Of a stretch of DNA of 64,000 bases, positions 7,708-60,363 are shown piece after piece. The DNA is from Prevotella sp. (GTDB lineage Bacteria; Bacteroidota; Bacteroidia; Bacteroidales; Bacteroidaceae). Positions within the stretch are counted from its first letter, which is position 1; every line of letters begins with the position of its first letter. Location: positions 19,743 through 83,742 of the forward strand of contig JAGBJJ010000009.1 in the NCBI GenBank assembly GCA_017934525.1, read 5' to 3'. The position numbers and the translations under genes are program-made. The notes beneath the pieces are model-generated. The model did not search any database. It saw only the letters and a list, made by a program, of their open reading frames with translations, and was not told the DNA's origin.

Positions 7708-10248
7708 CTACAGCGTCAGCTCAGCCGACTGGAGCAGTGGCGCTGTGGCCCTCACCTTGATAGGAGCATGCGCTTCCTCTGCCAGTATGTAAGCCACGAG
7801 TCGGCCGCCATGCAGGCGCAGGCGGGAGGGCGCGCGATAGTGTGGAGCGCGGCGCACGGGCGGCACCTGCATGATGTTGCCGTTTTCCATTCCAAGCAGA
7901 CGGGCCGGCCCCTCCAGATGAAGTGCCACCTCGCAGTCGGCCAGGTATGCGGTGCGGCCGTCGCCGTCGACCGCCTCAATGGTGACGATGCTGACGCGTT
8001 CGCCGGCCTTCCGTTCGCCGACGGTTATGCGCAGCCCTTGAGGCTGGCGACAGGTGTATAGCTCATAAGAGGCGCCGTTGGCGGCTTGGCAGCGCAGCGT
8101 GCCTGGCTGGTAGTTCAGGTCCCAGTAGAGAATGGCCGTGGCCGAGTCGCGCTTCGCCTCGCCGCCGACGGGCATGCCGTTCAGCGTGAGGCTGGCCGAG
8201 GCGGCATTGGTGTAGCAAACCACGCGCACGCGCTGCCCCTCGTCGTAGCTCCACACGTCGGGAGCCCACGACGACACATAGTTACCGTCATTGGCCGACT
8301 GAAGCGCCAGAGGGTAAGCGCCAATGTAGCACACAGGCTCTTCGCTCCAAAGGGCGGCGCGATACCAGCCTATGGGCTTGCGCTCGCCCTTCAGGTCGAG
8401 CAGTCCGGCCGATGAGCCGCGTGCGGGCCATATGCCCGCCTCGCCCAGATAGTCGATGCCCGTCCATAGAAACTGCCCGAAGATGTGGTCGTTTTGTTCC
8501 ACAGCCTGCCATGCGGGCAGGTCATGACGGTTTTCAGAGCCGTAGATGACACGCTTGGGATACCTCGCGTGGTCTTCGTCGTAGCGGCTCTCAGTGTAGT
8601 TGTAGCCCACCACGTCGACAGCCTCGGGATAGGCCGTTGCGTTCGACATGACCACACCGGCCAGTGCACCCGTGACGGGGCGCGACGTGTCGATGCCCCT
8701 GACCACGGCTGCCAGCCGCTGCGCGATATGGCCGATGCGCTCAGCATGAGGCTGGCCGGGCTTGTAGCCGCCGTACATGGGCTGGGTGAAGCCGCCGGTG
8801 CCGCCGTCGAGCACGGGATGAGAGTAAGGGTCGTTGGGATAGTCCACCTCGTTGCCGATGCTCCACAGAAACACCGAGGGGTGGCAGCGGTCGCGCCGCA
8901 CCATGTCGGCCACGTCGTGCTCAATCCATTCCTCGAAGAAGGTGTAGGTGCCCTGATAGCCCGGTGCCCCCTGGTTCCATCCCTTCAGCCATTTGCGTTT
9001 GGGAAACTCCCATTCGTCGCTGGCCTCGTCCATGACGAGCAAGCCCAGCTCGTCGCAGAGGTCGTAGAGCTCAGGCATGTGTGGGTTGTGGCTCATGCGG
9101 ATGGCATTGGTGCCGATGCGCTTCAGCTCGGTGAGCCGCTGCCGCCAAACCTCGCGGGGCACGGCGGTGCCCAGTGCGCCGGCATCGTCGTGCAGGCAGA
9201 CGCCTTTCACCTTTATCCACTGGCCGTTGAGGGCAAAGCCACGGTCGGGCGAGAACTGCAGCGTGCGCAGACCGGCCTTCACGGTGGAGCTGTCGCACAC
9301 GGCGGCGGGCGTGGCATCGGTGCCGCCGTTGAGCAGTCTGGTGTGTAGGGTGTATAGATAGGGCTTGTCAAGCGACCAGCGCTGCGGGTTCTTCACACTG
9401 AGGCGCACCGTCTTCTTCTCTTGTGTGCTGATGGGCGTGCGTGCAGTGGCCACGATGCGCCCGTCGGCGTCGGCCAGTTCCACCACAGCGCTCAGCTGCA
9501 CCGGCGTCCTCGTGAGGCGTTCGTCGGTGGTCTCTACATCGACCTCAACGATGGCTTTGCCGCGCGAGATGCTTTGCAGCCGGTAGGCTGTGCCCCATTG
9601 CGCCAGATGTATTTGCGGCGACCGGATGAGCCACACGTGGCGGTTGATGCCCGAGCCGGTGTACCAGCGTGCGTCGGCCTCTTCCGAGTGGTCCACACGC
9701 ACGGCCACCATGTTCTGTCCGTCGGGGCGTAGGTGGGGCGTGATATCGCAGAGAAACGATGCAAATCCGCTTGGCCTGTGGCCGGCACGCTCGCCGTTGA
9801 CAAAGACCTCAGCATGGCTGTAGGCACCCTCGAAGTAGAGGAAGAACTTCTGCTTGGCCCCGCCCCCTTCAGGAAGGAGGGGAGAGCTTGATGCGATAGA
9901 GGCTCCACTCCCTTCGGAGGGGGGTATGTGGAGTAGTCTTCTATACCATCCTATGCCGCCGGGCAGATAGCCCTGACATGATGCCTTGTCGGGCGACATG
10001 GGCAGCTCGATGCCCCAGTCGTGGGGTAGCTGCACTTGTCGCCACCTGGTGTCGTCGTATGAGGGCTGCGCCATGTCGGGCGACTCGACGATGTTCCATG
10101 CCGAGTCGACGCGCAGAAAGCGCCAGCCGTCGTCGAGCAGTGTGGCTTCTCCGAATGATACCTGTGCCCGGCTGTTGGTGCAGAGCAGAGCGAAGAGAAA
10201 GAAGAAGGTAAGACGTAGTAGCATGATGTGCTTAGTTTTTTGTGCCAT
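7708..10248 (-). CDS. Secreted GH2 beta-galactosidase-like enzyme
   Basis: This enzyme hydrolyses terminal beta-galactosides or related beta-linked sugars. The domain order is GH2 sugar-binding jelly roll, immunoglobulin-like domain, TIM barrel and C-terminal accessory beta domains. The acid/base Glu is in LWSIGNEVDYP and the nucleophile Glu is in VIYGSENRHD. I start at the ATG at 10248 (MAQKTKHIMLLRL, then a signal peptide ending NSRAQ); an ATG at 10224 is also possible. The open frame runs to 10368 but would translate the palindrome cluster 10291-10347, so that extension is unlikely to be real. An in-frame insert (plus-strand 9868-9928) after GWYRRLLH is made of two short G/C-rich inverted repeats (see findings). 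The partner genes suggest pectin or galactan degradation. Confidence 0.9.
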   Translation of the reverse strand: MAQKTKHIMLLRLTFFFLFALLCTNSRAQVSFGEATLLDDGWRFLRVDSAWNIVESPDMAQPSYDDTRWRQVQLPHDWGIELPMSPDKASCQGYLPGGIGWYRRLLHIPPSEGSGASIASSSPLLPEGGGAKQKFFLYFEGAYSHAEVFVNGERAGHRPSGFASFLCDITPHLRPDGQNMVAVRVDHSEEADARWYTGSGINRHVWLIRSPQIHLAQWGTAYRLQSISRGKAIVEVDVETTDERLTRTPVQLSAVVELADADGRIVATARTPISTQEKKTVRLSVKNPQRWSLDKPYLYTLHTRLLNGGTDATPAAVCDSSTVKAGLRTLQFSPDRGFALNGQWIKVKGVCLHDDAGALGTAVPREVWRQRLTELKRIGTNAIRMSHNPHMPELYDLCDELGLLVMDEASDEWEFPKRKWLKGWNQGAPGYQGTYTFFEEWIEHDVADMVRRDRCHPSVFLWSIGNEVDYPNDPYSHPVLDGGTGGFTQPMYGGYKPGQPHAERIGHIAQRLAAVVRGIDTSRPVTGALAGVVMSNATAYPEAVDVVGYNYTESRYDEDHARYPKRVIYGSENRHDLPAWQAVEQNDHIFGQFLWTGIDYLGEAGIWPARGSSAGLLDLKGERKPIGWYRAALWSEEPVCYIGAYPLALQSANDGNYVSSWAPDVWSYDEGQRVRVVCYTNAASASLTLNGMPVGGEAKRDSATAILYWDLNYQPGTLRCQAANGASYELYTCRQPQGLRITVGERKAGERVSIVTIEAVDGDGRTAYLADCEVALHLEGPARLLGMENGNIMQVPPVRRAPHYRAPSRLRLHGGRLVAYILAEEAHAPIKVRATAPLLQSAELTL

Positions 10249-10290
10249 AAAAAGTCGTTGCTGCGGTGAAAGGGTGATACTATAGAGTGA

Positions 10291-10347
10291 AATTTTGGCC
10301 GGAATTCTTTTGATTTTGGCCGGAATTGCACGAATTCCGGCCAAAAT
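10291..10347. repeat. Cluster of three GGCC-centred palindromic sites at 21-bp spacing
   Basis: Three copies of ATTTTGGCCGGAATT-like sequence, the third inverted, have their GGCC centres at 10297, 10318 and 10339, exactly 21 bp apart. The cluster lies about 43 bp upstream of the GH2 start, between two minus-strand genes. A second cluster with the same copy number, orientation and spacing is at 32475-32534. This suggests binding sites for a dimeric protein on one face of the helix, or a dispersed repeat. Confidence 0.8.
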
Positions 10348-10455
10348 ATCGCTTAGGTGAGTCTTCACTGCGGGCGGAAAATCATTCCGTTGGCGTAGAA
10401 CTGACGGGCAGAAGAGGGCAGAAGCTGCGCCCGCAGGCAGATGGCGCGAGGGTCT

Positions 10456-16946: not shown

Positions 16947-16978
16947 TTTGCAAGATTAAAAAAAAATTACGAACTTTG
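16947..16978 (+). promoter_or_regulatory. Promoter for dnaA
   Basis: TTTG (16947-16950), 20 nt, then GAACTTTG (16971-16978) followed by CACT. The -7 box is one base off TAnnTTTG. It is 70 nt before the dnaA ATG, within a 283 bp AT-rich gap (16766-17048) that has no other recognisable feature. The same arrangement and near-identical -7 sequence recur at 56102-56133. Confidence 0.65.
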
Positions 16979-18529: not shown

Positions 18530-18560
18530 TTGTTTATTTGTGATACTTTCGCTACTTTTG
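18530..18560 (+). promoter_or_regulatory. Promoter for the secreted protein at 18650
   Basis: TTG (18530-18532), 20 nt, then TACTTTTG (18553-18560) followed by CATC. The -7 box fits TAnnTTTG. A leader of about 80 nt precedes the chosen ATG. Confidence 0.6.
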
Positions 18561-20115: not shown

Positions 20116-20291
20116 TACAGCAGCAGACTGCTGAAGAGTGGGGAATGAGAAGCGCGGATTGCCGTTTGTCGTTCCTCACTTTTTTTTCGTGCATCCTCTT
20201 GTCCTTTTTCCTGTTTCCCCCATTCTTTCAGAAAAAAAACTTTGGTTGCCCGTGCAAGATTTTGTAACTATGCAGTTGATAAAAGAAAGAC

Positions 20292-48234: not shown

Positions 48235-50100
48235 ATGAAACGACTAAGCATCTTGATATCACTGTTTGGCATCCTGCTTTTCACGGGCTGCTCTGACATG
48301 CTCGAGACTGATAGTGCCCGCCAGGTGTTCGACCCCAGGCTCGACCAGAAGACCGACTCCATGTTCTTTGCCTTAGGCATCCTTGAGGCCATGCAGCAGG
48401 TGGCCGACCAGTATGTGTTCCAGGGCGAACTGCGTGGCGACCTGGTTACCACCACGCAGCACACCGACAGCATGCTGACCCAGCTGGCCGTCTTCTCGGC
48501 CACTACGGCCAACCGCTACGACTCGGCCTATGCCTACTATCGTGTAATCAACAACTGCAACTACTACATTGCTCACCGCGACACCACACTGCTCACCGGC
48601 GCCACCAATGTGGTCATCGACGAGTATGCCGCTGTGAAGGCCATCCGTGCCTGGGCTTACTTGCAGCTGGTGCGCTCCTATGGCAGTGTGCCGTTCTTCA
48701 CCGAGCCGCTGACGCAGATTACACAGATAGAGAACAGCAGTTTCCCCGAGCTTGACCTGGCCGGCATCGTCAGGGAGCTGGCCCCCGACTTGGAGCAGTA
48801 CACGGGTTTCTCTGCCCCCACCTATGCCAACGTGGTCGTGCCGGTGGGCGCCACCAACAGCGGTCAGGCGAAGACGCTCTATACGGGCTGTCTGATGATT
48901 CCGGTGGATGTCATACTGGGCGACCTCTACCTTGAGAACAACGATTATGCCGCCGCTGCCCGCCACTACATCGTATACCTGACACAGGTGGCTCCTACCA
49001 ACAGCTCGGCCTTCTTCTCGTTCTTCAGCGGGCGGCGTGGAGCGCAGGGCATGGGCTACGGGCAATACGCCGACCGTCCCAGTGATTGGGACGTGCAGGC
49101 GAACGGTACACTCGCGGGTGCCGGATCTTGGGCGCAGTCCATCTTCATCACCCGCAACACTACAGAAGACATCATCACCTACATACCCATGGCCGTCAAC
49201 CGCACGCTGGGCCCCACCACTCAGGTGCCTGCGGCCTTCGGCTACAACTACTACGCCACGTCGACCGAGACACAGCTCAGCGGCGGGCTCTATGCCGACG
49301 AGATACAGATTGAGCCCAGCCAGGCACTCTACGACCTGTCGGACTCTACCGACTACTATTATTACGTGGCAGGCAATGCCATTGCCCGCTCAGAGATAAA
49401 ATTTGCCAGACTGGGCGACCAGCGCCTTGCAGGCGTCATCCGCCAAGGCACGGGGCAGGATTCTACCAAGGTGTGGGTGCGTAAGTATGAGAATGGCAAC
49501 ATCGTGCTCTACCGCACATCGACCGTGCTGCTCCATCTGGCTGAGGCCTTCAATCGTCTCGGCATGACCGATGCGGCCTTTGCCATACTCAAGGATGGCA
49601 TAGGGCCTCATCTGCTGGAACCCGATGCGGCCTACATGACCGAGGCTACCCGCCAGGCCCTGCAGACCACCTACCCGCTGCTGTCGGCGCAAAACATGTC
49701 ACGTTTCAGCCTGCCGCGTCACCGCTTCGGCATCCACATGCACGGTGCTGGACAGGTGCGTGACTTCAACGGTCAGGACTATGTGTTCTCGCCTTATCAG
49801 CCTGACACCATCGTGGGCAACAAGATGCGGCAGATTGCACGCACTTTCCACGTCAGTGTGGGCACCACGAAGCAAGACACCATCAATGCCATGGAAGACT
49901 TGCTGTGCGATGAGTATGCGCTGGAGCTTGCCTTCGAAGGCACCCGCTACTTCGACCTCATGCGGCTGGCCCGCCACAAGAACGAGGCAGGGCTATATGA
50001 CCCCAACTTCGGCAGCAAGTGGCTGGCCGCAAAGCTGGCTTTCAAGAATCCTGCGGTCAATCTGGAAGACCCTCGCAACTGGTATTTGCCGTTTAAGTAA
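48235..50100 (+). CDS. SusD/RagB-type glycan-binding lipoprotein, second copy
   Basis: This 621-residue lipoprotein has lipobox LFTGC (about residue 19). SusD family motifs include YYRVINNCNYYIAHRDT, AAVKAIRAWAYLQLVRSYGS, VPFFTEPLT, VLLHLAEAFNRLGMTDAAFA and the C-terminal LLCDEYALELAFEGTRYFDL, MRLARHKN. It shares little with the first SusD beyond family features. Its stop overlaps the next ATG by one base (TAATG), coupling it to the GH115 gene. Confidence 0.95.
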   Translation: MKRLSILISLFGILLFTGCSDMLETDSARQVFDPRLDQKTDSMFFALGILEAMQQVADQYVFQGELRGDLVTTTQHTDSMLTQLAVFSATTANRYDSAYAYYRVINNCNYYIAHRDTTLLTGATNVVIDEYAAVKAIRAWAYLQLVRSYGSVPFFTEPLTQITQIENSSFPELDLAGIVRELAPDLEQYTGFSAPTYANVVVPVGATNSGQAKTLYTGCLMIPVDVILGDLYLENNDYAAAARHYIVYLTQVAPTNSSAFFSFFSGRRGAQGMGYGQYADRPSDWDVQANGTLAGAGSWAQSIFITRNTTEDIITYIPMAVNRTLGPTTQVPAAFGYNYYATSTETQLSGGLYADEIQIEPSQALYDLSDSTDYYYYVAGNAIARSEIKFARLGDQRLAGVIRQGTGQDSTKVWVRKYENGNIVLYRTSTVLLHLAEAFNRLGMTDAAFAILKDGIGPHLLEPDAAYMTEATRQALQTTYPLLSAQNMSRFSLPRHRFGIHMHGAGQVRDFNGQDYVFSPYQPDTIVGNKMRQIARTFHVSVGTTKQDTINAMEDLLCDEYALELAFEGTRYFDLMRLARHKNEAGLYDPNFGSKWLAAKLAFKNPAVNLEDPRNWYLPFK

Positions 50101-52475
50101 TGCTGCAGCTGAAACGAATCTCCGTCATTTGTGCCCTCACCGCTCTGACCATGTCAGCGGCGGGGGCGCAACTCGTCTGGGCCGACGCTGGAAGGGCAGT
50201 CAGCTATCAGGTGAATGGCAGCGCATCGCCTGTAGTGAGCATCGCGCTTCAGATGTTCAGTGCCGACATGCAGCTGGTGACCGGCCGCCCGGCCGAGAGC
50301 AGCGCGCAGGCCGTCATACAGATATATGAGCTCGGTTGCAACAAGACTGCCTGGCCCCTATTGGCCAGGATGGGCGTACCTGTAGGGCAGTTGGACGGCC
50401 GGGCCGATGCTTTTTATATAGGCGTCCATGGCGACCACATTGTCGTGGCGGGCAGCAACGGGCGTGGCTGTGCCTACGGGCTGCTCGAGTTGAGCCGCAT
50501 GGCTGGTGTATCGCCGTGGGTGTGGTGGGGCGATGTGGTGCCTGAGCGTCGCCGCCAGCTGGTCATCGACCGCCAGTACACTACCCTTCAGGTTCCCTCG
50601 GTGGAGTATCGGGGCATCTTCATCAATGACGAAGACTGGTCGTTGCGGCCCTGGTCGGCACTCACCGTCGAGCCTGACGCCAAGCCTGGACAGATGGGTC
50701 CGCGCACCTATAAGAAACTGTTCATGCTTCTGCTGCGCCTGCGTGCCAATACTATCTGGCCCGCCATGCATCCGGGCACGGAAGCCTTTTTTGCCGTGGC
50801 GGGCAACAAGGAGATGGCCGACTCGTGCGGCATCGTGGTAGGCTCGAGCCACTGCGAGCCCTTGCTCCGTAATAATGTGGCTGAGTGGGATGTGACGCAG
50901 CGCGGTGCCTACAACTACATAACCAACCGCACCGAGGTGCAGCACTACTGGGCAGAGCGCCTTGAGCAGATGCGTGGCAGCGAGGCGCTCTTCACCATCG
51001 GCATGCGCGGCATTCACGACGGCTCTATGGAGGGCGTGAAGACTCCGGAGGAGAAGCTGCTGGGCCTGCAGCAGGTCATTGACGACCAGCGACAGCTCAT
51101 AGGCCGACACTACAGTGAAGACGTGGAGCGCGTGCCTCAGGTGTTCATCCCCTATAAGGAGGTGCTCGGCATCATGGAGAGTGGGCTGCGCGTGCCGGCC
51201 GACGTGGCGCTGGTGTGGTGCGACGACAACTATGGCTACATGACCCGTCTGGGCGATGCCGTGCAGCAGCAGCGACAGGGTGGGGCAGGCATTTATTATC
51301 ACCTGAGCTATTGGGGGCGCCCACATGACCATCTGTGGCTCACTACCACGCAGCCCGGGCTGATTTACCATGAGATGCGCATGGCCTACAACCGCAACGC
51401 GCGCCGCATCTGGATTGCCAATGTGCACGACCCGAAAGTGGCTGCCTACGACCTGCAGCTGTTTCTCGACATGGCTTGGGATATTGACTGTGTCGGGTCA
51501 CGCACGCTTAACGACCATCTGCTGCACTGGCTCACCACCCAGTTTGGCCAGGAGGTGGGCCGGGAGCTGGCGCCGGCTATGCGCGAGTACTACCGGCTGA
51601 ACGCCATCCGCAGGCCTGAGTTTATGGGCTGGACTCAGGTGGAGCTCGACAAGCGTAAGTTTGCCGGCGGTATGTCGCAGGTGGGGCAGCTGCAGCTCAC
51701 CGCTGCTGAGGCGGCAGACCGTCTGGAAGCCTTCGGGCGCATCAAGGCCACGGTAGACCGCTGTCGGCTGTTGCTGCGGCCTGAGCTGCGTGATGCCTAC
51801 TTTGCCCATGTGGTCTATCCCGTGTGTGCTGCCGCTGCCATGACGCGCAAACTGGTGAGCGACTCGGCAGAGAGCCGCCAGGCCTATGCCGAGATACAGC
51901 ACCTCACCGACCGCTATAATACGCTTGCCGGCGGCAAGTGGCGCGGACTGATGGACGCTGCGCCGCGCCGTCTGCCCGTCTTCGGCAATGTGTGCGGGCG
52001 ACTGGCTGCTGCTGATACGACGGCTGCGGCGTCGCTCATAGCCCGACGGGCCTCTGACTTCACGCGCTCTTCGGTAGCCGTAGAGCCAGTGCAGATGCTG
52101 GGCCACTCCATGAATGCCGTGCCCCTGCCCCGCGGGGGAGTGCTCACCTACGAATTTGATTGCAGGCAGGAGGGCGATGCCACGCTCTACACCGCCATGA
52201 TTCCCACGCAGCCCAGCGATGATGGCGACCTGCGCTACACGGTGCAGATAGATGACCTTCCGCCTGACACCATCTCGCTGAAAGAGCCTTTCCGTTCGGA
52301 GCGCTGGAAGCTGAATGTGCTGCGGGGGCAGGCACTGCGGCAGACGCCGGTCAGCGTGCAGAAAGGACACCATACCTTGCGCATCGCAGCCCTCGACGAC
52401 CATGTCATCGTCGACCAGTGGATGCTCGACTTCCTGCCGTCGCGGTCTTTTTATGTCATCCCTGCCGCAGAATAG
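50100..52475 (+). CDS. GH115 alpha-glucuronidase
   Basis: This 791-residue exported enzyme removes (4-O-methyl-)glucuronic acid side groups, typically from internal positions of glucuronoxylan, and some members act on arabinogalactan. After a signal peptide (ICALTALTMSAAGAQ) the family blocks are clear: VEYRGIFINDEDWSLRPW, MLLLRLRANTIWPAMHPGTE, IGMRGIHDGSMEG, VALVWCDDNYGYMTRL, AGIYYHLSYWGRPHDHLWL and ANVHDPKVAAYDLQLFLDMA. The length is near the short end of the family, which often carries an extra C-terminal module; here the last 130 residues form such a beta domain. It is the only glycosidase in the SusCD operon, so glucuronic-acid-decorated glycan is the likely target. Confidence 0.93.
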   Translation: MLQLKRISVICALTALTMSAAGAQLVWADAGRAVSYQVNGSASPVVSIALQMFSADMQLVTGRPAESSAQAVIQIYELGCNKTAWPLLARMGVPVGQLDGRADAFYIGVHGDHIVVAGSNGRGCAYGLLELSRMAGVSPWVWWGDVVPERRRQLVIDRQYTTLQVPSVEYRGIFINDEDWSLRPWSALTVEPDAKPGQMGPRTYKKLFMLLLRLRANTIWPAMHPGTEAFFAVAGNKEMADSCGIVVGSSHCEPLLRNNVAEWDVTQRGAYNYITNRTEVQHYWAERLEQMRGSEALFTIGMRGIHDGSMEGVKTPEEKLLGLQQVIDDQRQLIGRHYSEDVERVPQVFIPYKEVLGIMESGLRVPADVALVWCDDNYGYMTRLGDAVQQQRQGGAGIYYHLSYWGRPHDHLWLTTTQPGLIYHEMRMAYNRNARRIWIANVHDPKVAAYDLQLFLDMAWDIDCVGSRTLNDHLLHWLTTQFGQEVGRELAPAMREYYRLNAIRRPEFMGWTQVELDKRKFAGGMSQVGQLQLTAAEAADRLEAFGRIKATVDRCRLLLRPELRDAYFAHVVYPVCAAAAMTRKLVSDSAESRQAYAEIQHLTDRYNTLAGGKWRGLMDAAPRRLPVFGNVCGRLAAADTTAAASLIARRASDFTRSSVAVEPVQMLGHSMNAVPLPRGGVLTYEFDCRQEGDATLYTAMIPTQPSDDGDLRYTVQIDDLPPDTISLKEPFRSERWKLNVLRGQALRQTPVSVQKGHHTLRIAALDDHVIVDQWMLDFLPSRSFYVIPAAE

Positions 52476-52595
52476 ACAGACTGTTGCGTTGGGTGACAGC
52501 TTGGATGCGACTTCTTTAGCAGGAGAATGACTGACACCAAGGAAACTACGATTTAATATTCTCAAAAACTATAGCACTTTGTGAAAGATTTATGC

Positions 52596-52603
52596 TATCT
52601 TTG
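52596..52603 (+). promoter_or_regulatory. -7 box for the esterase gene
   Basis: TATCTTTG followed by CACA matches TAnnTTTG, 33 nt before the ATG. It implies that the esterase can be expressed separately from the SusCD operon. Confidence 0.6.
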
Positions 52604-52636
52604 CACACAGATAACTAATCAACAACGATACTACAG

Positions 52637-54097
52637 ATGATGAAGCGACTATTCACCCTGATGATTGCTGCGCTGGCGACCACTGCACTGCAGGCACAGA
52701 CCGCCCGCCGGTTCACCGTGAACATTTCGCCCGACGGGGCTGCAAAGATGGAGGCTTTCCTGCCTGACCACGCCATGGGGCGCGCCATCGTTGACTGTCC
52801 GGGGGGCGGCTATAGCCATCTGGCTGTAGACCATGAAGGCTACGACTGGGCTTCCTACTTCAACAAGCAGGGCATTGCCTACTTCGTGCTTACCTACCGC
52901 ATGCCCAAGGGCGACCGCACCATCCCCCTCGGCGATGCCCAGACGGCCATACGCACGGTGCGCGACTCTGCCCGTACGTGGGGCGTCAACCCGCTCGACG
53001 TGGGTATCATGGGCTTCTCGGCCGGCGGCCACCTGGCTTCGGCCGTGTCGACGCACAGCGAGTACGACTGCCGTCCGGACTTCACCATCCTCTTCTATCC
53101 AGTCATCTCGATGGATAAGCGCGAGGGCCACCGCGGCTCGGCCGTCAGCTTCCTCGGCGAGGAAGGCAGCAACGACGAGCTGCTGGTGAAGCAGTGGTCG
53201 AGCCAGAACAGCGTGCGCAGCCACCTGACGCCACCTGCCATCATACTGGCGGCCAGCGACGACGGCGTCGTGCCTGTGCTCACCAATGGCATGGCCTACT
53301 ACTCGGCCATGCGCCGTGCGGGCAACGACTGCGCCCTCTACGTCTATCCGTCGGGCGGCCATGGCTTCGGTTTCCGCAGCACGTGGACTTATCATGAGCA
53401 GATGCTCATCGACCTGGCCTGTTGGCTGGCCATGCTGCCCTCACCGCGCACCAATGCCGTGCGCGTGGCATGCATAGGCAACAGCATCACCCACGGTTCG
53501 GGCATCGACATGCAGGAGCACAACAGCTATCCGGCTCAGCTGCAGCGCTTGCTGGGTGACGCCTACTACGTGAAGAACTACGGGGTGGGAGCCCGCACAA
53601 TGCTCAACAGCGGCGACCACCCCTATATGAAAGAGATGGCCTGGCGCGACGCGCTGGCCTTCCGCCCCGACGTGGTGGTAATCAAACTGGGCACTAACGA
53701 CGCGAAAGACTACAACTGGAATGCCCACAAACAGGAGTTTGAGGCTGACATGCAGCAAATGATAGATGCGCTAAGCCCGATGCTCCCTGTGCGCGACAAG
53801 AAGGGGCGCCCAACGAAGACGATGGTGCGCAGCAAGCGTCCTGTCATACTGCTCTGCACGCCCATTAAGGCCTTTCGCGACAAGTGGGGCATCACCGACT
53901 CGGTCATCGTGGGCGAGGTGGCACCGGCCATACGTCGGGTGGCGCAGCGCAACGGTCTGACCGTGGTCGACCTGCACGACGCCATCGCTGATGAGCGCGA
54001 GATGACCACCGACATGATTCACCCCAATGCCAAAGGAGCCGCCCGTCTGGCTGAAACCATTGCTGAGGAAATCTTGAAGCTGAACCTGGCAGAGTGA
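52637..54097 (+). CDS. Two-domain secreted esterase: alpha/beta-hydrolase plus SGNH hydrolase
   Basis: This 486-residue protein has a signal peptide (LIAALATTALQAQ). The first half is an alpha/beta-hydrolase with oxyanion block DCPGGGYSHLA, nucleophile elbow MGFSAGGHLAS and His in SGGHGFGF. The second half (from about residue 273) is an SGNH hydrolase with block I CIGNSITHGSGID, block III KLGTNDAKD and the Asp/His block DMIHPNAKG. Fusion of two esterase folds is typical of acetylxylan or other plant polysaccharide deacetylases, where each half may remove a different ester. It fits with the GH115 to its left. Its substrate is inferred from context. Confidence 0.92.
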   Translation: MMKRLFTLMIAALATTALQAQTARRFTVNISPDGAAKMEAFLPDHAMGRAIVDCPGGGYSHLAVDHEGYDWASYFNKQGIAYFVLTYRMPKGDRTIPLGDAQTAIRTVRDSARTWGVNPLDVGIMGFSAGGHLASAVSTHSEYDCRPDFTILFYPVISMDKREGHRGSAVSFLGEEGSNDELLVKQWSSQNSVRSHLTPPAIILAASDDGVVPVLTNGMAYYSAMRRAGNDCALYVYPSGGHGFGFRSTWTYHEQMLIDLACWLAMLPSPRTNAVRVACIGNSITHGSGIDMQEHNSYPAQLQRLLGDAYYVKNYGVGARTMLNSGDHPYMKEMAWRDALAFRPDVVVIKLGTNDAKDYNWNAHKQEFEADMQQMIDALSPMLPVRDKKGRPTKTMVRSKRPVILLCTPIKAFRDKWGITDSVIVGEVAPAIRRVAQRNGLTVVDLHDAIADEREMTTDMIHPNAKGAARLAETIAEEILKLNLAE

Positions 54098-54222: not shown

Positions 54223-54271
54223 CAAATCTTAATTTATGAAAGAGGTGAGGTGCTCTCTCCCTTTTTTTTCA

Positions 54272-54279
54272 TATTTTTG
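54272..54279 (+). promoter_or_regulatory. Possible -7 box for the AraC-type regulator
   Basis: TATTTTTG lies 12 nt before the ATG at 54292, in a T-rich stretch. The very short leader would be unusual, so this is tentative. Confidence 0.4.
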
Positions 54280-54291
54280 TGGAGTATTTTT

Positions 54292-55896
54292 ATGAGTTTC
54301 TTCTATAGACTATTACTGCTGTTCCTAATGGTGTTTGGCGGCCATGTGAGAGCTGCTAACACTGTTGTCGAAGACTACGACTCACTGTCGCGCTTGTCTT
54401 CCGAACAACTGATGGCCAGCGGGAGGGGCTATTTTGAGCAGCGTGCGGCCGGCAAGTCGCTGGCGTGCTTTACCATTGTGGCCGAGCGCTTCGACGAGAG
54501 CATGGACAGCAAGGACGTGCGCATGTCGATACGTGCCATCAACAACATTGGCTGCGTCTACAAATACTTCTATTTTGACTATGCACAGGCTTACGAGAAC
54601 TTCACCAGGGCTGTAGACCTGTGCGAGAACTACCACTACGACGAGTTCATACCCGTGGCACTGGTCAACTTGGGCGACCTGCTCAACGACTACGGCTTGA
54701 AGTACGTGTCGCAGCCGATGGCCGACCAGGCCATGCACATCTTCGAGCGGTGTATGGACGAGGCTATGAAAGGCAAGAACTGGGAGGTGCTCACCACGGC
54801 TTTCTTTAATCTCGCGAACCAGAACTTCGACCTTGACCTCGACAAGTTTAAGGTGATTTTCTCAAGCGAGATAGCAGAAGATGCGCCCGACCTGCAGTAT
54901 GTGCGGCTGCAATATCGCGGCATAGAGCATACGCAGCAGGGACGCTACGATGAGGCGCTGAAATGCTTCTTCGAGCAGTTCAGCGTGGTGAATGCACGCT
55001 GGGAGCCAGAGCGCGACACGCTGTCGACGCTGATGAGCATTGCCCATGTCTATAAGCTGAAGAACGACTTGCAGCATGCCGTGGACTATCTGCAGAAGGC
55101 GCTGCAACTGTCGGAACAATACCACATAGACGATCACTCGGCTGGCATCTGCCAGCTGCTGTCGGAGTATTACCGCCTGATGGGCAACGAGGCGCAGGAG
55201 CGCGAATACCACCTGCGTTATCTGGAGAAAAGCGAGACGATACACAGTCACCGGCTGGCCAGCATAGGCGAACTGACCTACGTGCATGAGCTGAAGAAAG
55301 AGCAACAGCGGGCCCGTGAACTCGCTATCAGGCAGCAGCGGCAGCAGTATGTCCTGCTCATGGGCGGCTTTGCGCTGCTGGTGGTGCTCGTCTCGGCGGT
55401 GCTGCTGTGGCGCAAGAACCGCGAGCTGATGTCTCGCAACAAGAGCCTTTTTGAAAAGACGCAGCAGGTGATGCGCGTGGAGGAGGAGCAGCAGAAGCTG
55501 CGCCATACCACCTCGCAGAGCACAGAAAACCGCGAGAGCCTGATACTACGTATCCAGGAGGTGCTCGACGCGCCGGAGCAGATATGCCAGCAGGACTTCA
55601 CCGTGGCGCGGCTGGCCAAGCTGGTCGGGTCGAACACCACCTACGTGTCGCAGGCCATCAACGAGAAGTACGGCATGGCATTCAGCAACGTGCTGGGCAC
55701 CTACAGGGTGCGCGAGGCATGTCGCCGCATGAACGATGTGGAACACTACGGCCACGTCACCATCGAGGCGGTTGCCATGGGGGTGGGCTTCAAGTCGCGC
55801 ACGGCTTTCGCCAATGCCTTCAAGCGCGAGACGGGTCTGACACCGTCGGAGTATCTTCGCATGGCTTCTGATGTGCCCTCGGCTGCTGAGACATGA
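54292..55896 (+). CDS. Membrane-bound TPR sensor with AraC-type DNA-binding domain
   Basis: This 534-residue regulator is probably the transcription factor of the neighbouring locus. It has an N-terminal signal or anchor (FFYRLLLLFLMVFGGHVRA) and a periplasmic TPR-like region (about 20-340; for example IRAINNIGCVYKYFYFDYAQ and RYDEALKCFFEQ). One transmembrane helix follows (VLLMGGFALLVVLVSAVLLW, about 350-372), then a cytoplasmic coiled coil and a C-terminal AraC HTH domain (FTVARLAKLVGSNTTYVSQA, IEAVAMGVGFKSRTAFANAF, GLTPSEYL). This layout has no kinase, so signal probably passes by conformational change. I reject the earlier in-frame start at 54250. Confidence 0.9.
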   Translation: MSFFYRLLLLFLMVFGGHVRAANTVVEDYDSLSRLSSEQLMASGRGYFEQRAAGKSLACFTIVAERFDESMDSKDVRMSIRAINNIGCVYKYFYFDYAQAYENFTRAVDLCENYHYDEFIPVALVNLGDLLNDYGLKYVSQPMADQAMHIFERCMDEAMKGKNWEVLTTAFFNLANQNFDLDLDKFKVIFSSEIAEDAPDLQYVRLQYRGIEHTQQGRYDEALKCFFEQFSVVNARWEPERDTLSTLMSIAHVYKLKNDLQHAVDYLQKALQLSEQYHIDDHSAGICQLLSEYYRLMGNEAQEREYHLRYLEKSETIHSHRLASIGELTYVHELKKEQQRARELAIRQQRQQYVLLMGGFALLVVLVSAVLLWRKNRELMSRNKSLFEKTQQVMRVEEEQQKLRHTTSQSTENRESLILRIQEVLDAPEQICQQDFTVARLAKLVGSNTTYVSQAINEKYGMAFSNVLGTYRVREACRRMNDVEHYGHVTIEAVAMGVGFKSRTAFANAFKRETGLTPSEYLRMASDVPSAAET

Positions 55897-55967
55897 TGTC
55901 CAGGCAGCCCGTATTCCATACAATGATGTCCTCTTAAAGGTAAGACTGAGTGTGTATTTCTGGTGAG

Positions 55968-55997
55968 CGACGACCGTTTGCGGCCGCCGTTTTTTTT
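55968..55997 (+). terminator. Terminator after the AraC-type regulator
   Basis: Imperfect stem CGACGACCG / CGGCCGCCG (7 of 9 pairs) with a 4 nt loop is followed by eight T residues. An AT-rich 9 bp hairpin (56033-56052) lies further on in the same gap. Confidence 0.7.
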
Positions 55998-56101
55998 GAT
56001 GCATCTCAGCAGCCGATGAGCTGAAAACCGATGTCTTTTTTGTAAAAAAGACCGGTATTTGGACTGAATTTATAAATATGGTCACACGAAAGCTGCAATT
56101 A

Positions 56102-56133
56102 TTTGTTATTTTGAGAAGTATTTACGAACTTTG
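56102..56133 (+). promoter_or_regulatory. Orphan promoter pointing into the gap before GH97
   Basis: TTTG (56102-56105), 20 nt, then GAACTTTG (56126-56133) followed by CACT. It is the same layout, spacing and -7 box as the dnaA promoter, but no plus-strand gene follows. Confidence 0.6.
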
Positions 56134-56139
56134 CACTGT

Positions 56140-56312
56140 CAAAAAAAAGGTGAAAGCACACATACATGATAAGGGCTGAAAGGATAAACGCCCAGCGTAG
56201 AATGATTGTTTTACAAGAATGCAACCTAAAAATCACTATGTCATTGCACGTCGAGGGTGACACGTCAGGCTGCTTACCGCAGTGTATGAGTGTCACGCTC
56301 GATGGCTTTTTT
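56140..56312 (+). ncRNA. Candidate intergenic small RNA, about 173 nt
   Basis: Transcription from the orphan promoter would begin near 56140. It would end at a strong terminator: the arms 56249-56263 and 56290-56304 pair over 15 positions (one G-G mismatch, one G-U), followed by GGC and six T residues (56307-56312). A smaller stem (CTGC / GCAG) lies inside the loop. Only a 13-codon frame (56219-56260) fits fully inside; a 98-codon frame from 56166 runs past the terminator and has no recognisable domain. This explains most of the 554 bp gap 55897-56450. It is not recognised as a known RNA family, so the call is inference. Confidence 0.45.
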
Positions 56313-56404
56313 ATGGGGTTGGTTAGTTTGGCTTTCGTCTGTGAATGGGGTTGCCGCAACGCTTTCAGAGTGACTGTATCGTGTAAGAGTTGCAAGAGCT
56401 CGGT

Positions 56405-56445
56405 GAAAAGAGTGAGGGCTGCCCTGATACCTCAAGGACAGCCCT
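56405..56445 (-). terminator. Terminator of the minus-strand GH97 gene
   Basis: On the minus strand AGGGCTGTCC pairs with GGGCAGCCCT around an 11 nt loop, followed by CACTCTTTTC, just past the GH97 stop. Confidence 0.75.
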
Positions 56446-56450
56446 GCTGC

Positions 56451-58430
56451 TTACATGGCTGATGTGATGATGAGCCCGCCATTGGGCTGTATGGTTACCT
56501 TGGCTTGACCCTTCTTCCCGATATTCAGAGTCTTCTTTACGCAGCCGGCCACGGCACCGTTCTTGTTGGCATAGTCGGTAATCAGCGTGGCGGCTGACGA
56601 GCCGATGAAACTCAGGTCGAGTGTCAGCCGGAGTGGCTGCTGCCCTGCATTCAGCCCTGCCACATACCATTGGCTGCCGTGGCGTCGTGCCATGACGACG
56701 TAGCGGCCCGGATAGCCGTCGATGAAGCGGGTCTCGTCCCAGGTGGTGGGCAACTGCCGGAGGAAGTCGAGCTCTACGTCAGGCAGCTCGTCGAGGTTGT
56801 TGGGCTGCATGGCCACACACTGCAGGGCCGACTGGTTGGTGATGCCCGATGCCAGCTCGAAGGCATTGGTGGTGTGGCGCTGATGGCGGCTGCGATTGTC
56901 TTTCGACAGATATTTGTTCATGATGATGCCGCCCCAGTCCATCGCGCCTACAGCATTGCGGCAGAAAGGGTGTATGGTGAGCTGGAAGGGCTCCTGCTGG
57001 GCGTGGTAATCGGTGAAGAACACGTTCTCACTGGCCAGCACAGCCTCGCTCGACACATAGTTGGGATACATGCGCTCCCAGCCGCGGGGCAGCGTGCAAC
57101 CGTGGAAAATGCACTGCAGACCGTAGCGGTTGGCATCGTAGAGTATATCTTCGTAGAGTTTCATCGTCTCTTGCTTGTCGCCGCCGAAGAAGTCCACCTT
57201 GATGCCTTTCACACCGATTTCCTTCAGCCATGCCATCTCGCAGTCGCGTGCCATGGCCGTGTTCATGCAGTTGCGTGGACCTTGCGGTGCGTCGTTCTCA
57301 TAGCCGTTGCTGTTGTACCACAGCATCAGAGCCACGCCTTTCGACAGGGCGTAGGCCGACAGCTGGGCCATGCGGTCGCGCCCGATGTTCTGGTCCCACC
57401 AGTTGTCTATCAGGCAATATTCGAATCCCATCTTGGCTGCCAGGTCGATGAAGGCCACCTGGTCGTCCCAGTTGATGCTGTTATCTTGCCAGATGAGCCA
57501 GCTCCACGTGTAGCGGCCGTAGCGGTAGTCTTCGGAAGGGGCGTAGAGGGGCTCCACTACGTCGTAGGCTATGGTGGTCTCTACGATGGGTTTCAGCGTG
57601 AAGCCCACAGTGATGGTGCGCCATGGCGTGTAGCCGGGCAGGGTGATGCCTGCCGAGGTGGTGCCGTTGCCGTTGTTCTCGCCGGCCATGGGGTAGGCAA
57701 TGGTGTAGCCCGCGGCCTCGTCGTAGTCGGAGAGATGGGTGCCGCAGTACTGGCTGCTGACGCCGGTCTCTGAGATGAGCACCCAGCCGCCGCTCTGCGC
57801 GTCGGCCGTGGCAGGTGTATGAAACAGACATGGGAACGTGTAGCCCTCGCCGTACTGTGAGCGCCCGTTCATCGGGGCGTCGGCTTTATACTCCTCTTCG
57901 TAGCTTGGCTTAGTGCGCTCCCATCCCACCATGGCACTGCTTTGCGGACAGATGAACGTGGTGGTGCCGTCGGGCAGGCGGAATGCTGTGGCCTCGCTGC
58001 TGATGGTGGCGCATTTGGGCTTGTCGTTGGCCTGGCGGGGAAGCATGTAGCGGAAGGCCACATCGTTGTCTGACACGGAGAACTGCACCGACAGCTTCTG
58101 CTGTTTTTCATTCTCGAAATCTACGTTGAGCAGTGTGGCCACATAGCGCATGTGCGACTGCTTGGTCTGCCGCATCTCGTAAGTGCGGTCGATTGGCTGT
58201 GCACTGGTGGCAGTGATTTTCATCTGACGGGTGAAGTCGGCGAAGTCAGCCTTCAGGCCCAGCGCCGATGGCAGCAGCATTTGTTGTCCGTCGAGAGCGA
58301 CGCTGTAGGTGGGGAGTCCGTCGTGGTCGCTGACGGTCACGACGAGTTTACCGTTGGGCGAGGCTACGGTGGCTTCGCGTGCCATGACTGCCAGAGGCAG
58401 CAACATGAGGGGGATAAGCAGTTTTTTCAT
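56451..58430 (-). CDS. GH97 family alpha-glycosidase
   Basis: This 659-residue periplasmic enzyme has a signal peptide (LLIPLMLLPLAVMA). The GH97 order is visible: N-terminal beta-sandwich (VASPNGKLVVTVSDHDGLPT, DNDVAFRYML), catalytic TIM barrel (FEYCLIDNWWD, GVALMLWYNS, GVKGIKVDFFGGDKQ, CIFHGCTLPRGWERMYPNYV, then SSEAV) and a C-terminal beta domain. The Asp in GIKVDFF is compatible with the retaining, alpha-galactosidase-type branch, not the inverting SusB branch, but I cannot confirm this without alignment. I start at the ATG at 58430, because the longer frame adds a non-signal tail. It lies 43 nt after a PL11 gene and is probably cotranscribed with it. Confidence 0.92.
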   Translation of the reverse strand: MKKLLIPLMLLPLAVMAREATVASPNGKLVVTVSDHDGLPTYSVALDGQQMLLPSALGLKADFADFTRQMKITATSAQPIDRTYEMRQTKQSHMRYVATLLNVDFENEKQQKLSVQFSVSDNDVAFRYMLPRQANDKPKCATISSEATAFRLPDGTTTFICPQSSAMVGWERTKPSYEEEYKADAPMNGRSQYGEGYTFPCLFHTPATADAQSGGWVLISETGVSSQYCGTHLSDYDEAAGYTIAYPMAGENNGNGTTSAGITLPGYTPWRTITVGFTLKPIVETTIAYDVVEPLYAPSEDYRYGRYTWSWLIWQDNSINWDDQVAFIDLAAKMGFEYCLIDNWWDQNIGRDRMAQLSAYALSKGVALMLWYNSNGYENDAPQGPRNCMNTAMARDCEMAWLKEIGVKGIKVDFFGGDKQETMKLYEDILYDANRYGLQCIFHGCTLPRGWERMYPNYVSSEAVLASENVFFTDYHAQQEPFQLTIHPFCRNAVGAMDWGGIIMNKYLSKDNRSRHQRHTTNAFELASGITNQSALQCVAMQPNNLDELPDVELDFLRQLPTTWDETRFIDGYPGRYVVMARRHGSQWYVAGLNAGQQPLRLTLDLSFIGSSAATLITDYANKNGAVAGCVKKTLNIGKKGQAKVTIQPNGGLIITSAM

Positions 58431-58473
58431 TTCTCTGATATATGTAATAATGTATAGTCGCACGGCAGTTGCT

Positions 58474-60363
58474 CTACTTCAGGTAGTCTTGCTTGTCGGG
58501 GCCTAAGTAGAACCCAGGCTCAGGCGGCTGGTTGTAGCCCACATTCTCGGTGGCCACAGAGAGACGGTAGGGCACGTCTTGCATCAGGCAGTCGATGCGG
58601 TAGGGCGTCGGTATAGTGGTGGAATAGAGGCGCAGCTCGGTCGACTCGTGGTTTCTGATGAGCACCTCCTCGCGCCAGTCGCCCAGCAGGTCGGCCGAGA
58701 GGCAGGGAGTCGACTTGGTGCCGTTGTTAAATGTTCCGTCGAAGTACTGTATGTCTATCACCTGACGGTTTTCCCAGTCGAACTTGCTGACGGTCTCGTG
58801 GTCGAGCAGTTCGCGCAGCAAGTCGGCGTCCCACCATATGCCGAAGTTGATGGAAAGCCCGCGGCCGTTGAACATGAGGTGCTGGCTGTGCTGCGGATCA
58901 GCTGCATCGCTGGTCTGACAGACCAGCTCGCCCTTGATGTTGCGTATGCCGTGGCTGTCAGACGACCACATCTCCACGCCTGGGTTGACGGGGTCGATGT
59001 CGGCGGCCATGGCACGCCCTACATCGCTTGAACTCGGAATCTGGAAGAGCACCTGTCCGGTAGCCGCATCGCGGAAGTCGCTTCCGTCGCGTCGGTTCTC
59101 ATGGCAGTCCCATACCTGCAGACGGTCGGTAGAGGGGTCGAAGGCCATCAGGTGGATGGCATCGCCGTGCCCCATGCGTGTGTTGTAGAGGCCCCGCCCG
59201 TCGTTGTCTATGGCCATCGAGCCGTAGGTTATCTCATCACATCCGTCGCCGTCGACATCGGCCACGCGCAGGTTGTGGTTACCCTGCCCGGCATAGTCGT
59301 GCCAAGGCTCTTCGTTGGTGTCAAACACCCATCGGCGTTTCAGCTCGTGTCCGTCCCAGTCCCATGCGGCCAGCACGGTGCGCGTGTAGTAGCCGCGGCA
59401 GAAGATGGCGCTGGCATGCTCGCCGTCGAGATAGCCCACGGCAGCCAGATAGCGCTCAGAGCGGTTGCCGCGGTCGTCACCCCAGTCTGACAGGTTGCCG
59501 CGTTCGGGGATGTAGGGCTTGGTGTCGAGCACTTCGCCCGTGAGTGCGCTGAACACGCTGATGTACTCTGGTCCTTCGAGGATACGGCCCCTCTTCGGCA
59601 GCCGCTTCTGTGGCGTGTCGGCGCCGTAGCGATAGTCGGCCGTGGCGTCGCCTATGATGTTGCCTTTGGCATCGCGTGTGCCGTCGGCAGTCTTCACCAT
59701 CAGTTCTGCGCAGCCGTCGCCGTCGAGGTCGTAGACGATGAAGGGCACGTAGTGTGCGCCGCTGCGTATGTTGCGCCCCATGTCGATGCGCCACAGGTGG
59801 TGGCCGTTCAGGCGGTAGCAATCGAAGAGCGTAGGGCCGGTGAAGCCGTCGTGAGCATTGTCGTGTGAGTTGGTGGGGTCCCATTTCACGATAATCTCGT
59901 ATTGTCCGTCGCCGTCGACATCGCCCACGCTGCAGTCGTTAGCCGTGTAGTCGTAGGGCCAGCCGTCGGGGCTGGTGCCGCCTTCGGGCTTGTTGATGCT
60001 GATGGGCAGATAGCCTACGGGGGCATCGCTGCGCAGCGTAAATTCGCCGTTGCGCTCGCCGCCCTCCACGCGGTAGACGGCGTCGTCGGCTGTAGGAGCC
60101 TCGTCGATGAAGCACGTGCCGCCCTCGGTGAGCGGCGTGGCATTGAGCAGCAGCCCGTTGCGATAGATGTTGAAGGGCTCTGCCTTACGGTCGGATCTCA
60201 GTGTGCGCCAGCTGACGAAGACGCGCCCGTCAGTTTGGCGGATGGCCACCACGCCGCGGTCGAGCTGCTCCATACGGAGCTTCGAGTAGTCGTAGCGTGG
60301 CTGTGCCCATGCTGCAAGAAGCATGAGCATGCTGAAGCTTGTAGTTAGTAGTAGTCGTTTCAT
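58474..60363 (-). CDS. PL11 rhamnogalacturonan lyase
   Basis: This 629-residue secreted enzyme has the canonical size for PL11. The signal peptide (LLTTSFSMLMLLAAWAQ) is followed by MEQLDRGVVAIRQTDGRVFV and an eight-bladed propeller with calcium motifs CSVGDVDGDGQYEIIVKWDP, VYDLDGDGCAELMVKTADG and VADVDGDGCDEITYGSMAID, plus ADLLGDWREEVLIR and ATENVGYNQPPEPGFYLG at the end. It cleaves rhamnogalacturonan I by beta-elimination. It is independent of the giant PL11 fusion at 22939: the shared motifs are family ones, and the flanks differ. It pairs with GH97 in a pectin-side-chain set. Confidence 0.95.
   Translation of the reverse strand: MKRLLLTTSFSMLMLLAAWAQPRYDYSKLRMEQLDRGVVAIRQTDGRVFVSWRTLRSDRKAEPFNIYRNGLLLNATPLTEGGTCFIDEAPTADDAVYRVEGGERNGEFTLRSDAPVGYLPISINKPEGGTSPDGWPYDYTANDCSVGDVDGDGQYEIIVKWDPTNSHDNAHDGFTGPTLFDCYRLNGHHLWRIDMGRNIRSGAHYVPFIVYDLDGDGCAELMVKTADGTRDAKGNIIGDATADYRYGADTPQKRLPKRGRILEGPEYISVFSALTGEVLDTKPYIPERGNLSDWGDDRGNRSERYLAAVGYLDGEHASAIFCRGYYTRTVLAAWDWDGHELKRRWVFDTNEEPWHDYAGQGNHNLRVADVDGDGCDEITYGSMAIDNDGRGLYNTRMGHGDAIHLMAFDPSTDRLQVWDCHENRRDGSDFRDAATGQVLFQIPSSSDVGRAMAADIDPVNPGVEMWSSDSHGIRNIKGELVCQTSDAADPQHSQHLMFNGRGLSINFGIWWDADLLRELLDHETVSKFDWENRQVIDIQYFDGTFNNGTKSTPCLSADLLGDWREEVLIRNHESTELRLYSTTIPTPYRIDCLMQDVPYRLSVATENVGYNQPPEPGFYLGPDKQDYLK

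Follow-up and report, generated by a model that had tools for sequence, protein, structure and literature searches.

The locus examined here raises the question of what a transcription unit is, and where it comes from, when it has a promoter and a terminator and probably contains no protein gene. The unit is located in a window of 64,000 nucleotides, which is the whole stretch of Prevotella sp. DNA that was analyzed, and the genome from which it is taken is a 2.6 Mb assembly that is 76.5% complete and consists of 101 contigs. The candidate RNA unit lies between two convergent genes: a TPR-AraC regulator gene of 548 aa on the plus strand (54250–55896), with the Pfam domains TPR_12 and HTH_18/HTH_AraC, and a GH97 glycoside hydrolase gene on the minus strand (56451–58463), also assigned using Pfam. 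According to Pfam, the flanks of the unit consist of SusD, GH115, and esterase genes (48235–54097) on one side and a GH97-PL11 pair (56451–60363) on the other side, and these two clusters converge at the unit. A sequence-only reading of this DNA had interpreted the unit as a candidate autonomous small-RNA gene that might tune the use of glycans.

The promoter proposed in that reading, TTTG-N20-GAACTTTG, was found on the plus strand at 56102–56133, where TTTG at 56102–56105 is followed by a 20-nt spacer and by GAACTTTG at 56126–56133. The assignment as a sigma-ABfr-type promoter is based on motif counts in the window, in the genome itself, and in relatives. The motif occurs 272 times in the genome, compared to 36 times for the reversed control pattern. 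When both strands of the window are counted, TTTG-N19-21-nAnnTTTG has 4 sites, and the other three are located 29, 71 (dnaA), and 32 nt upstream of ORFs of at least 100 codons. The likeness to the dnaA promoter (16947–16978) was also borne out: the 14-mer TACGAACTTTGCAC of the −7 region has exactly two copies in the 2.6 Mb genome, one at dnaA and the other at the unit, and in both promoters the −7 box opens with GA, not TA.

The surroundings of this motif were evaluated for the first 30 of the 272 sites in the genome. Two sites at contig ends and two within reading frames were left out, so that 26 were evaluable, and an ORF was defined as a frame of at least 60 codons within 150 nt. An ORF was found at most 150 nt away at 24 of these 26 sites; 23 of the 24 ORFs have at least 119 codons, and 21 of the 24 have a codon score above 0. 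The remaining two sites (L105 and L109) stand before tRNA clusters. One site of the sample, L094, has just an 89-codon frame with a codon score of −0.52, and when this rule is applied to the window unit, it gives the 98-codon frame with a score of −0.35. It is thus uncommon in the 26-site sample, but not unique, for the promoter to lack a clear gene behind it, as the frames at both L094 and the window unit are poor.

At the other end of the unit, an intrinsic terminator is located at 56249–56312 on the plus strand, which consists of a 22-pair hairpin and T6. The sequence-only reading had described it as a 15-position stem with six T residues, and the calculated fold agrees with this description: the region of 56249–56304 has a fold energy of −33.7 kcal/mol. 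Its outer stem consists of seven pairs, a mismatch, and seven pairs, and is followed by GC and then by T6 at 56307–56312. This terminator is the strongest among the 25 hairpin+T6 sites in the window, where the runner-up has −31.7 at 20180. In a Markov control of 400 kb, none of 420 hairpin+T6 sites reaches −25 kcal/mol, and a simple terminator scan gave one terminator-like site, within the same hairpin, compared to 0.6 expected in shuffled sequences.

The two neighboring genes had been said to have separate terminators of their own, which would insulate the unit on both sides. Both terminators are present, but they are unequal. That of the regulator gene (55968–55997, plus strand) is weak, with −9.5 kcal/mol for the fold of 55960–55997 followed by T8, and the hairpin of the convergent GH97 gene (56405–56445, minus strand) has −22.1 kcal/mol for the fold of 56400–56448 and a poor T tract. 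To call the unit insulated is fair, but this falls short of proven. Between the regulator terminator and the operator-like site described below there is another inverted repeat, whose stem is A/T-rich (56025–56060, −10.5 kcal/mol), and it could be a backup terminator. Short matches to 56024–56060, outside the unit, were found at L044 and L049 in the DNA search of genus genomes.

The start of the RNA was placed at approximately 56140 on the basis of the promoter spacing, which gives a predicted transcript of about 173 nt (56140–56312). The fold of the whole transcript has a z value of −3.77. The part upstream of the terminator hairpin (56140–56248, plus strand), which is predicted to be an unstructured and non-coding RNA body, has a z value of −0.32, as in shuffled sequence. 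It is therefore the terminator that makes the fold of the unit as a whole significant, because the body folds no better than the shuffles.

The RNA had been described as belonging to no recognized family, and the Rfam search of the whole window is in agreement with this, as no family reached the gathering score in the unit. With loose thresholds up to E 5 in the region of 55880–56480, the only hit was to a CRISPR repeat, which was attributed to chance and does not lie in the unit. The searches for DNA homologues of the RNA in 150 and 398 genus genomes, together with a 28-mer pattern search in 150, gave short matches only, and no match to the unit was found in the phage collection. Several of the short matches were considered as RNA homologues and rejected. 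L045 and L048 are both a promoter and leader ahead of a frame, the match of L046 is promoter-like, that of L002 lies inside a reading frame, and that of L047 is an exact match of 22 nt in the RNA body, but it is within a 920-codon gene.

The origin of the promoter was considered using 15 relatives of the TPR-AraC regulator for which the 3′ end of the gene is available, with best aligned segments that are 41–65% identical to the regulator in the window. These relatives are from the same genus, where the named ones are Prevotella, Prevotellaceae, or Bacteroidales, and they are partly non-independent; for example, L198 and L037 are mutually close. A palindromic site, TCGTTCANATTTGTAAATATGAACGA, is found 10–403 nt past the regulator stop codon in 14 of the 15 relatives (L196–L203, L006, L035, L037, L038, L041, and L042). 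The sole relative without the site is L204, which has the lowest identity of 41%. The distance from the start of the site to the TTTG of the −7 box is 70 nt in eight and 71 nt in six of the 14 relatives. The window has an operator-like palindrome, TGGACTGAATTTATAAATATGGTCAC, at 56060–56085 on the plus strand as the counterpart of the site kept after the regulator gene in relatives, and its offset to the −7 TTTG is 70. As judged from these sequences, the TPR-AraC regulator is the presumed reader of this operator. We consider it very likely that the promoter of the unit is by ancestry the target promoter of the regulator, because the same site is found at an offset of 70 after the regulator gene, as in 14 of the 15 relatives.

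A search downstream of 22 further TPR-AraC homologues (700 nt for 20 of them and less than 300 nt for two) did not find the operator motif in any case, and in the GH97 loci its regular expression matched once in 279,932 strand-bases, which corresponds to about 0.0025 per 700 nt. The exact operator core has one copy in the genome itself. With one mismatch, there are 33 matches compared to 6 for the reversed control, which indicates that look-alike operator sites exist; these may include the sites of related TPR-AraC regulators.

The operator in the window has diverged from those in relatives. Four of its positions have bases that are absent from all 14 relatives, and its score is 14.5, compared to 31–43 in the relatives (leave-one-out), so that the regulator may not bind it. 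The helix-turn-helix residues of the regulator are kept among the six proteins compared. A TTTG at −33, with a spacer of 18–23, is present in one of the 14 relatives (L042, spacer of 22) and in the window with a spacer of 20. In L005/L197, L008/L198, L035, and L041, a hairpin directly after the operator has its 5′ arm over the right half of the operator. These hairpins were found by eye, those of L005 and L035 were scored, and some are accompanied by a T run; the regulator terminator and the operator may therefore share bases.

What follows the promoter differs between the window and the relatives. An ORF of 141–1616 codons, in some cases reaching the end of the available stretch, begins 13–120 nt past the −7 box in 13 of the 14 relatives, and the 14th, L038, has an open 85-codon frame that runs to the contig end. 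In the window, no frame of 100 codons follows the promoter. Most of the target ORFs in the relatives start like secreted proteins, as judged by eye. In L035, neither Pfam nor NCBIfam gave a match for the first target product, and the second has choice-of-anchor D / HYDIN-like Ig domains. In L200 (G180), the promoter with the operator is separated from the large gene by a 141-codon gene, 424–849 nt past the regulator stop; the first target gene therefore appears to be exchangeable. On the evidence of these alignments, the conserved operator appears to tie the TPR-AraC regulator to long-protein operons in same-genus relatives, and the circuit could be annotated genus-wide. The sequences suggest a circuit from the regulator to secreted proteins across the genus. 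A literature search on TPR-AraC regulators of this kind and on the birth of sRNAs gave nothing direct. The claim that the unit is autonomous does not agree with these results, as its promoter corresponds in position to the TPR-AraC target promoter of 14 of the 15 relatives, which is followed by a long gene in 13 of these 14.

No clear remnant of the operon was found at the locus. The best blastn match between the RNA and the lost operon has an E value of 0.66, and the best tblastx match of the region, with an E value of 0.012, lies outside the RNA and comes from the minus strand. A search for the first target protein of L035 in the genome of the window gave no match; the absence of the operon elsewhere in the genome is weak evidence, because the assembly is incomplete and fragmented. 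A simple deletion model, in which GH97 would lie beyond the operon in the relatives, was rejected, as no GH97 ORF is found in the 0.5–14.9 kb stretches downstream of the 15 regulator relatives. None of 58 GH97 loci (2.7–5.1 kb) has a match to the regulator.

What is observed is an operator and promoter kept at a fixed spacing in relatives and, in the window, the absence of a long gene, the presence of a −33 box, and a terminator at about 173 nt. The explanation that we prefer, and consider probable with some reservation, is that the unit is the TPR-AraC regulator's own target promoter, which has been cut from its protein operon and now makes a short non-coding RNA. The promoter was most likely severed from the operon through a deletion or rearrangement, and the event in which the target operon was lost may also have brought the two glycan clusters together. 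The operator would be bound by the neighboring TPR-AraC regulator, RNA polymerase with sigma-ABfr would initiate near 56140, and the 3′ end of the RNA would be at 56312. The contribution of the regulator to initiation may be weak or gone, because the operator is weakened while the −33 box is present; the promoter would thus have shifted from regulator-dependent towards regulator-independent expression. That a terminated transcript is made is likely, as predicted from the promoter and the terminator. That the RNA has a selected function is rather doubtful; the −33 box and the terminator were counted for a function, and the weak operator and the unstructured body were counted for a vestige. If the RNA has been kept, it would act as a base-pairing sRNA through its unstructured 5′ part, which is considered slightly less likely than a vestige.

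The possibility that the unit encodes a small protein, either in the 98-codon frame beginning at 56166 or in the part of it before the terminator, is very remote in our estimation. The frame (56166–56462, plus strand) extends across the terminator and was judged to be no gene on the basis of the family, codon, and relative searches. Its first ATG is located 32 nt past the −7 box, the leader is A-rich, and many ORFs of the genome itself begin 19–50 nt past the promoter motif, all of which would suit a gene. However, the terminator lies inside the frame, and the codon score is −0.35 bits per codon, which is anti-coding compared to the mean of 0.62 for the ORFs in the window and to the positive scores of most ORFs in the promoter sample; the portion before the terminator has a score of −0.74. 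The 98-codon frames on both strands have no Pfam or PHROG match, and the search of 396 genus genomes for the plus-strand frame gave its own genome and one match of 31% with three stops, which is not a credible relative. The earlier description of a body of about 173 nt without a protein gene is in agreement with these results. The ORF rule alone separates neither the window unit nor L094 cleanly from the other sites, and for this reason our confidence in the main reading was lowered slightly and that in a small protein was raised. It is also improbable, although less so, that the end with the regulator and the end with GH97 are of separate origin and that the metagenome assembly put them together. 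The regulator and GH97 are found together in no other genome examined (15 relatives and 58 GH97 loci), the assembly is fragmentary, and the very large genes found here in relatives could break an assembly; however, the contig is continuous across the region, and the promoter and terminator form a coherent unit. An autonomous base-pairing sRNA that tunes the neighboring glycan-use genes, like GibS, FopS, or DonS, is unlikely. A promoter, a terminator, and no ORF constitute the anatomy of the high-confidence intergenic sRNAs of B. thetaiotaomicron as given in the consulted part of PMC7366714, and the unit is flanked by glycan-use genes, with the SusD, GH115, and esterase cluster to one side and the GH97-PL11 pair to the other. 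Against this reading, the promoter bears the site of the neighboring regulator, the unit matches no Rfam family, and no convincing pairing target was found among the start regions of 35 ORFs in the window, against which the RNA was evaluated with 60 shuffles each. The best pairing was with a distant ORF at 7708–10368 (z = −4.0, reached by 0 of 60 shuffles) and the second-best with the ORF at 18530 (z = −2.75); both are distant ORFs with uncertain starts, and they were discounted as targets. The best local pairing was with the regulator itself (z = −1.5). The proposed tuning of glycan use thus finds no direct support from an RNA homologue, from structure in the body, or from pairing to start regions in the window.

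A vestige from the loss of the operon accounts for the same data as a glycan-tuning sRNA. In this case, the target operon has been deleted, and the promoter, leader, and terminator are left joined, perhaps with a short inert transcript, while the operator decays. We give this slightly less than an even chance; it is the no-function branch of the preferred explanation, and the likelihoods of the two overlap. The operator is weakened even though the helix-turn-helix residues of the regulator are kept, the RNA is without a homologue, body structure, or coding signal, and the first ATG at 32 nt is within the leader range of the relatives, all of which are consistent with a vestige. However, a decayed remnant does not readily account for a consensus −33 box that is missing from 13 of the 14 relatives or for a terminator that exceeds all other hairpin+T6 sites of the window in strength, and the lost operon has left no recognizable remnant. 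A bolder form of the preferred explanation is that the TPR-AraC regulator exchanged its protein operon for an sRNA. In this scenario, the loss of the operon would have joined the activator-controlled promoter to a terminator, the promoter would have acquired a −33 box, and the 173-nt RNA would have become the output of the circuit. This is a tentative proposal, which we consider more doubtful than a selected function of the RNA as such.

If such an exchange occurred, the unit would be an sRNA gene shortly after its birth, with the ancestral state of its promoter readable in living relatives. The likely ancestral state is legible in the 14 relatives, which have the same regulator, operator, and spacing but a protein operon downstream. 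To our knowledge, ancestry is seldom visible for sRNA candidates found by sequence alone. If the RNA is made and active, the locus would offer a directly testable case in which a regulated promoter gave rise to an sRNA gene. An RNA that is made without any effect would instead cleanly illustrate the kind of orphan transcript that may be counted in surveys of sRNAs.

The closest known systems include the TPR-AraC target promoters of the relatives themselves. Like the window, they have a palindromic site right after the regulator gene and 70–71 nt from the site to the −7 box; unlike the window, they are followed by a long protein gene and, in 13 of the 14, are without a −33 box. Of the features of this class, the window has the operator in diverged form and the spacing, but not the long protein gene. 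Among sRNAs, SrcF of Segatella copri is a known example. MasB is an sRNA activated by Cur, as described in the part of PMC10994844 considered here, and its resemblance to the candidate is in its narrow conservation and its control by a transcription factor; it is about 100 nt long and has a tested target, whereas the presumed regulator of the candidate is the TPR-AraC protein encoded next door. GibS, DonS, and FopS are sRNAs that act on glycan use according to the portion of PMC11697453 used here. FopS and GibS, as described there, share with the candidate a 5′ part that lacks structure, a terminator after it, and a setting of polysaccharide utilization. The structure of FopS was deposited in Rfam, as stated in that portion of PMC11697453, and no family in the searched Rfam copy, which may include the FopS model, matches the candidate at the gathering threshold.

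The intergenic sRNAs of B. thetaiotaomicron provide the broadest comparison. In the sections of PMC7366714 drawn on here, 124 intergenic sRNAs are given, 49 of which have a terminator, and 27 of these 49 high-confidence sRNAs are strain-specific; sigma-ABfr promoters are present at 76% of the intergenic candidates. These sRNAs, as characterized in those sections, resemble the candidate in having their own sigma-ABfr-type promoter, no ORF, and a Rho-independent terminator, and the unit shows the sequence features of a Bacteroidota intergenic sRNA, namely, a sigma-ABfr-type promoter, a 3′ intrinsic terminator, and no coding signal. The starts and expression of the B. thetaiotaomicron sRNAs were measured according to the same sections (PMC7366714), whereas the candidate is known from prediction alone. 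In a search of 398 genus genomes, the RNA was not found to be conserved in any other species, which is compatible with membership among the sRNAs, because more than half of the high-confidence B. thetaiotaomicron sRNAs are strain-specific in the account cited above. In contrast to those sRNAs, as far as the consulted sections of PMC7366714 describe them, the promoter of the candidate can be traced to a promoter that stands before a protein operon in relatives. An unconserved sRNA candidate of such anatomy is ordinary; a promoter ancestry that can still be read is unusual.
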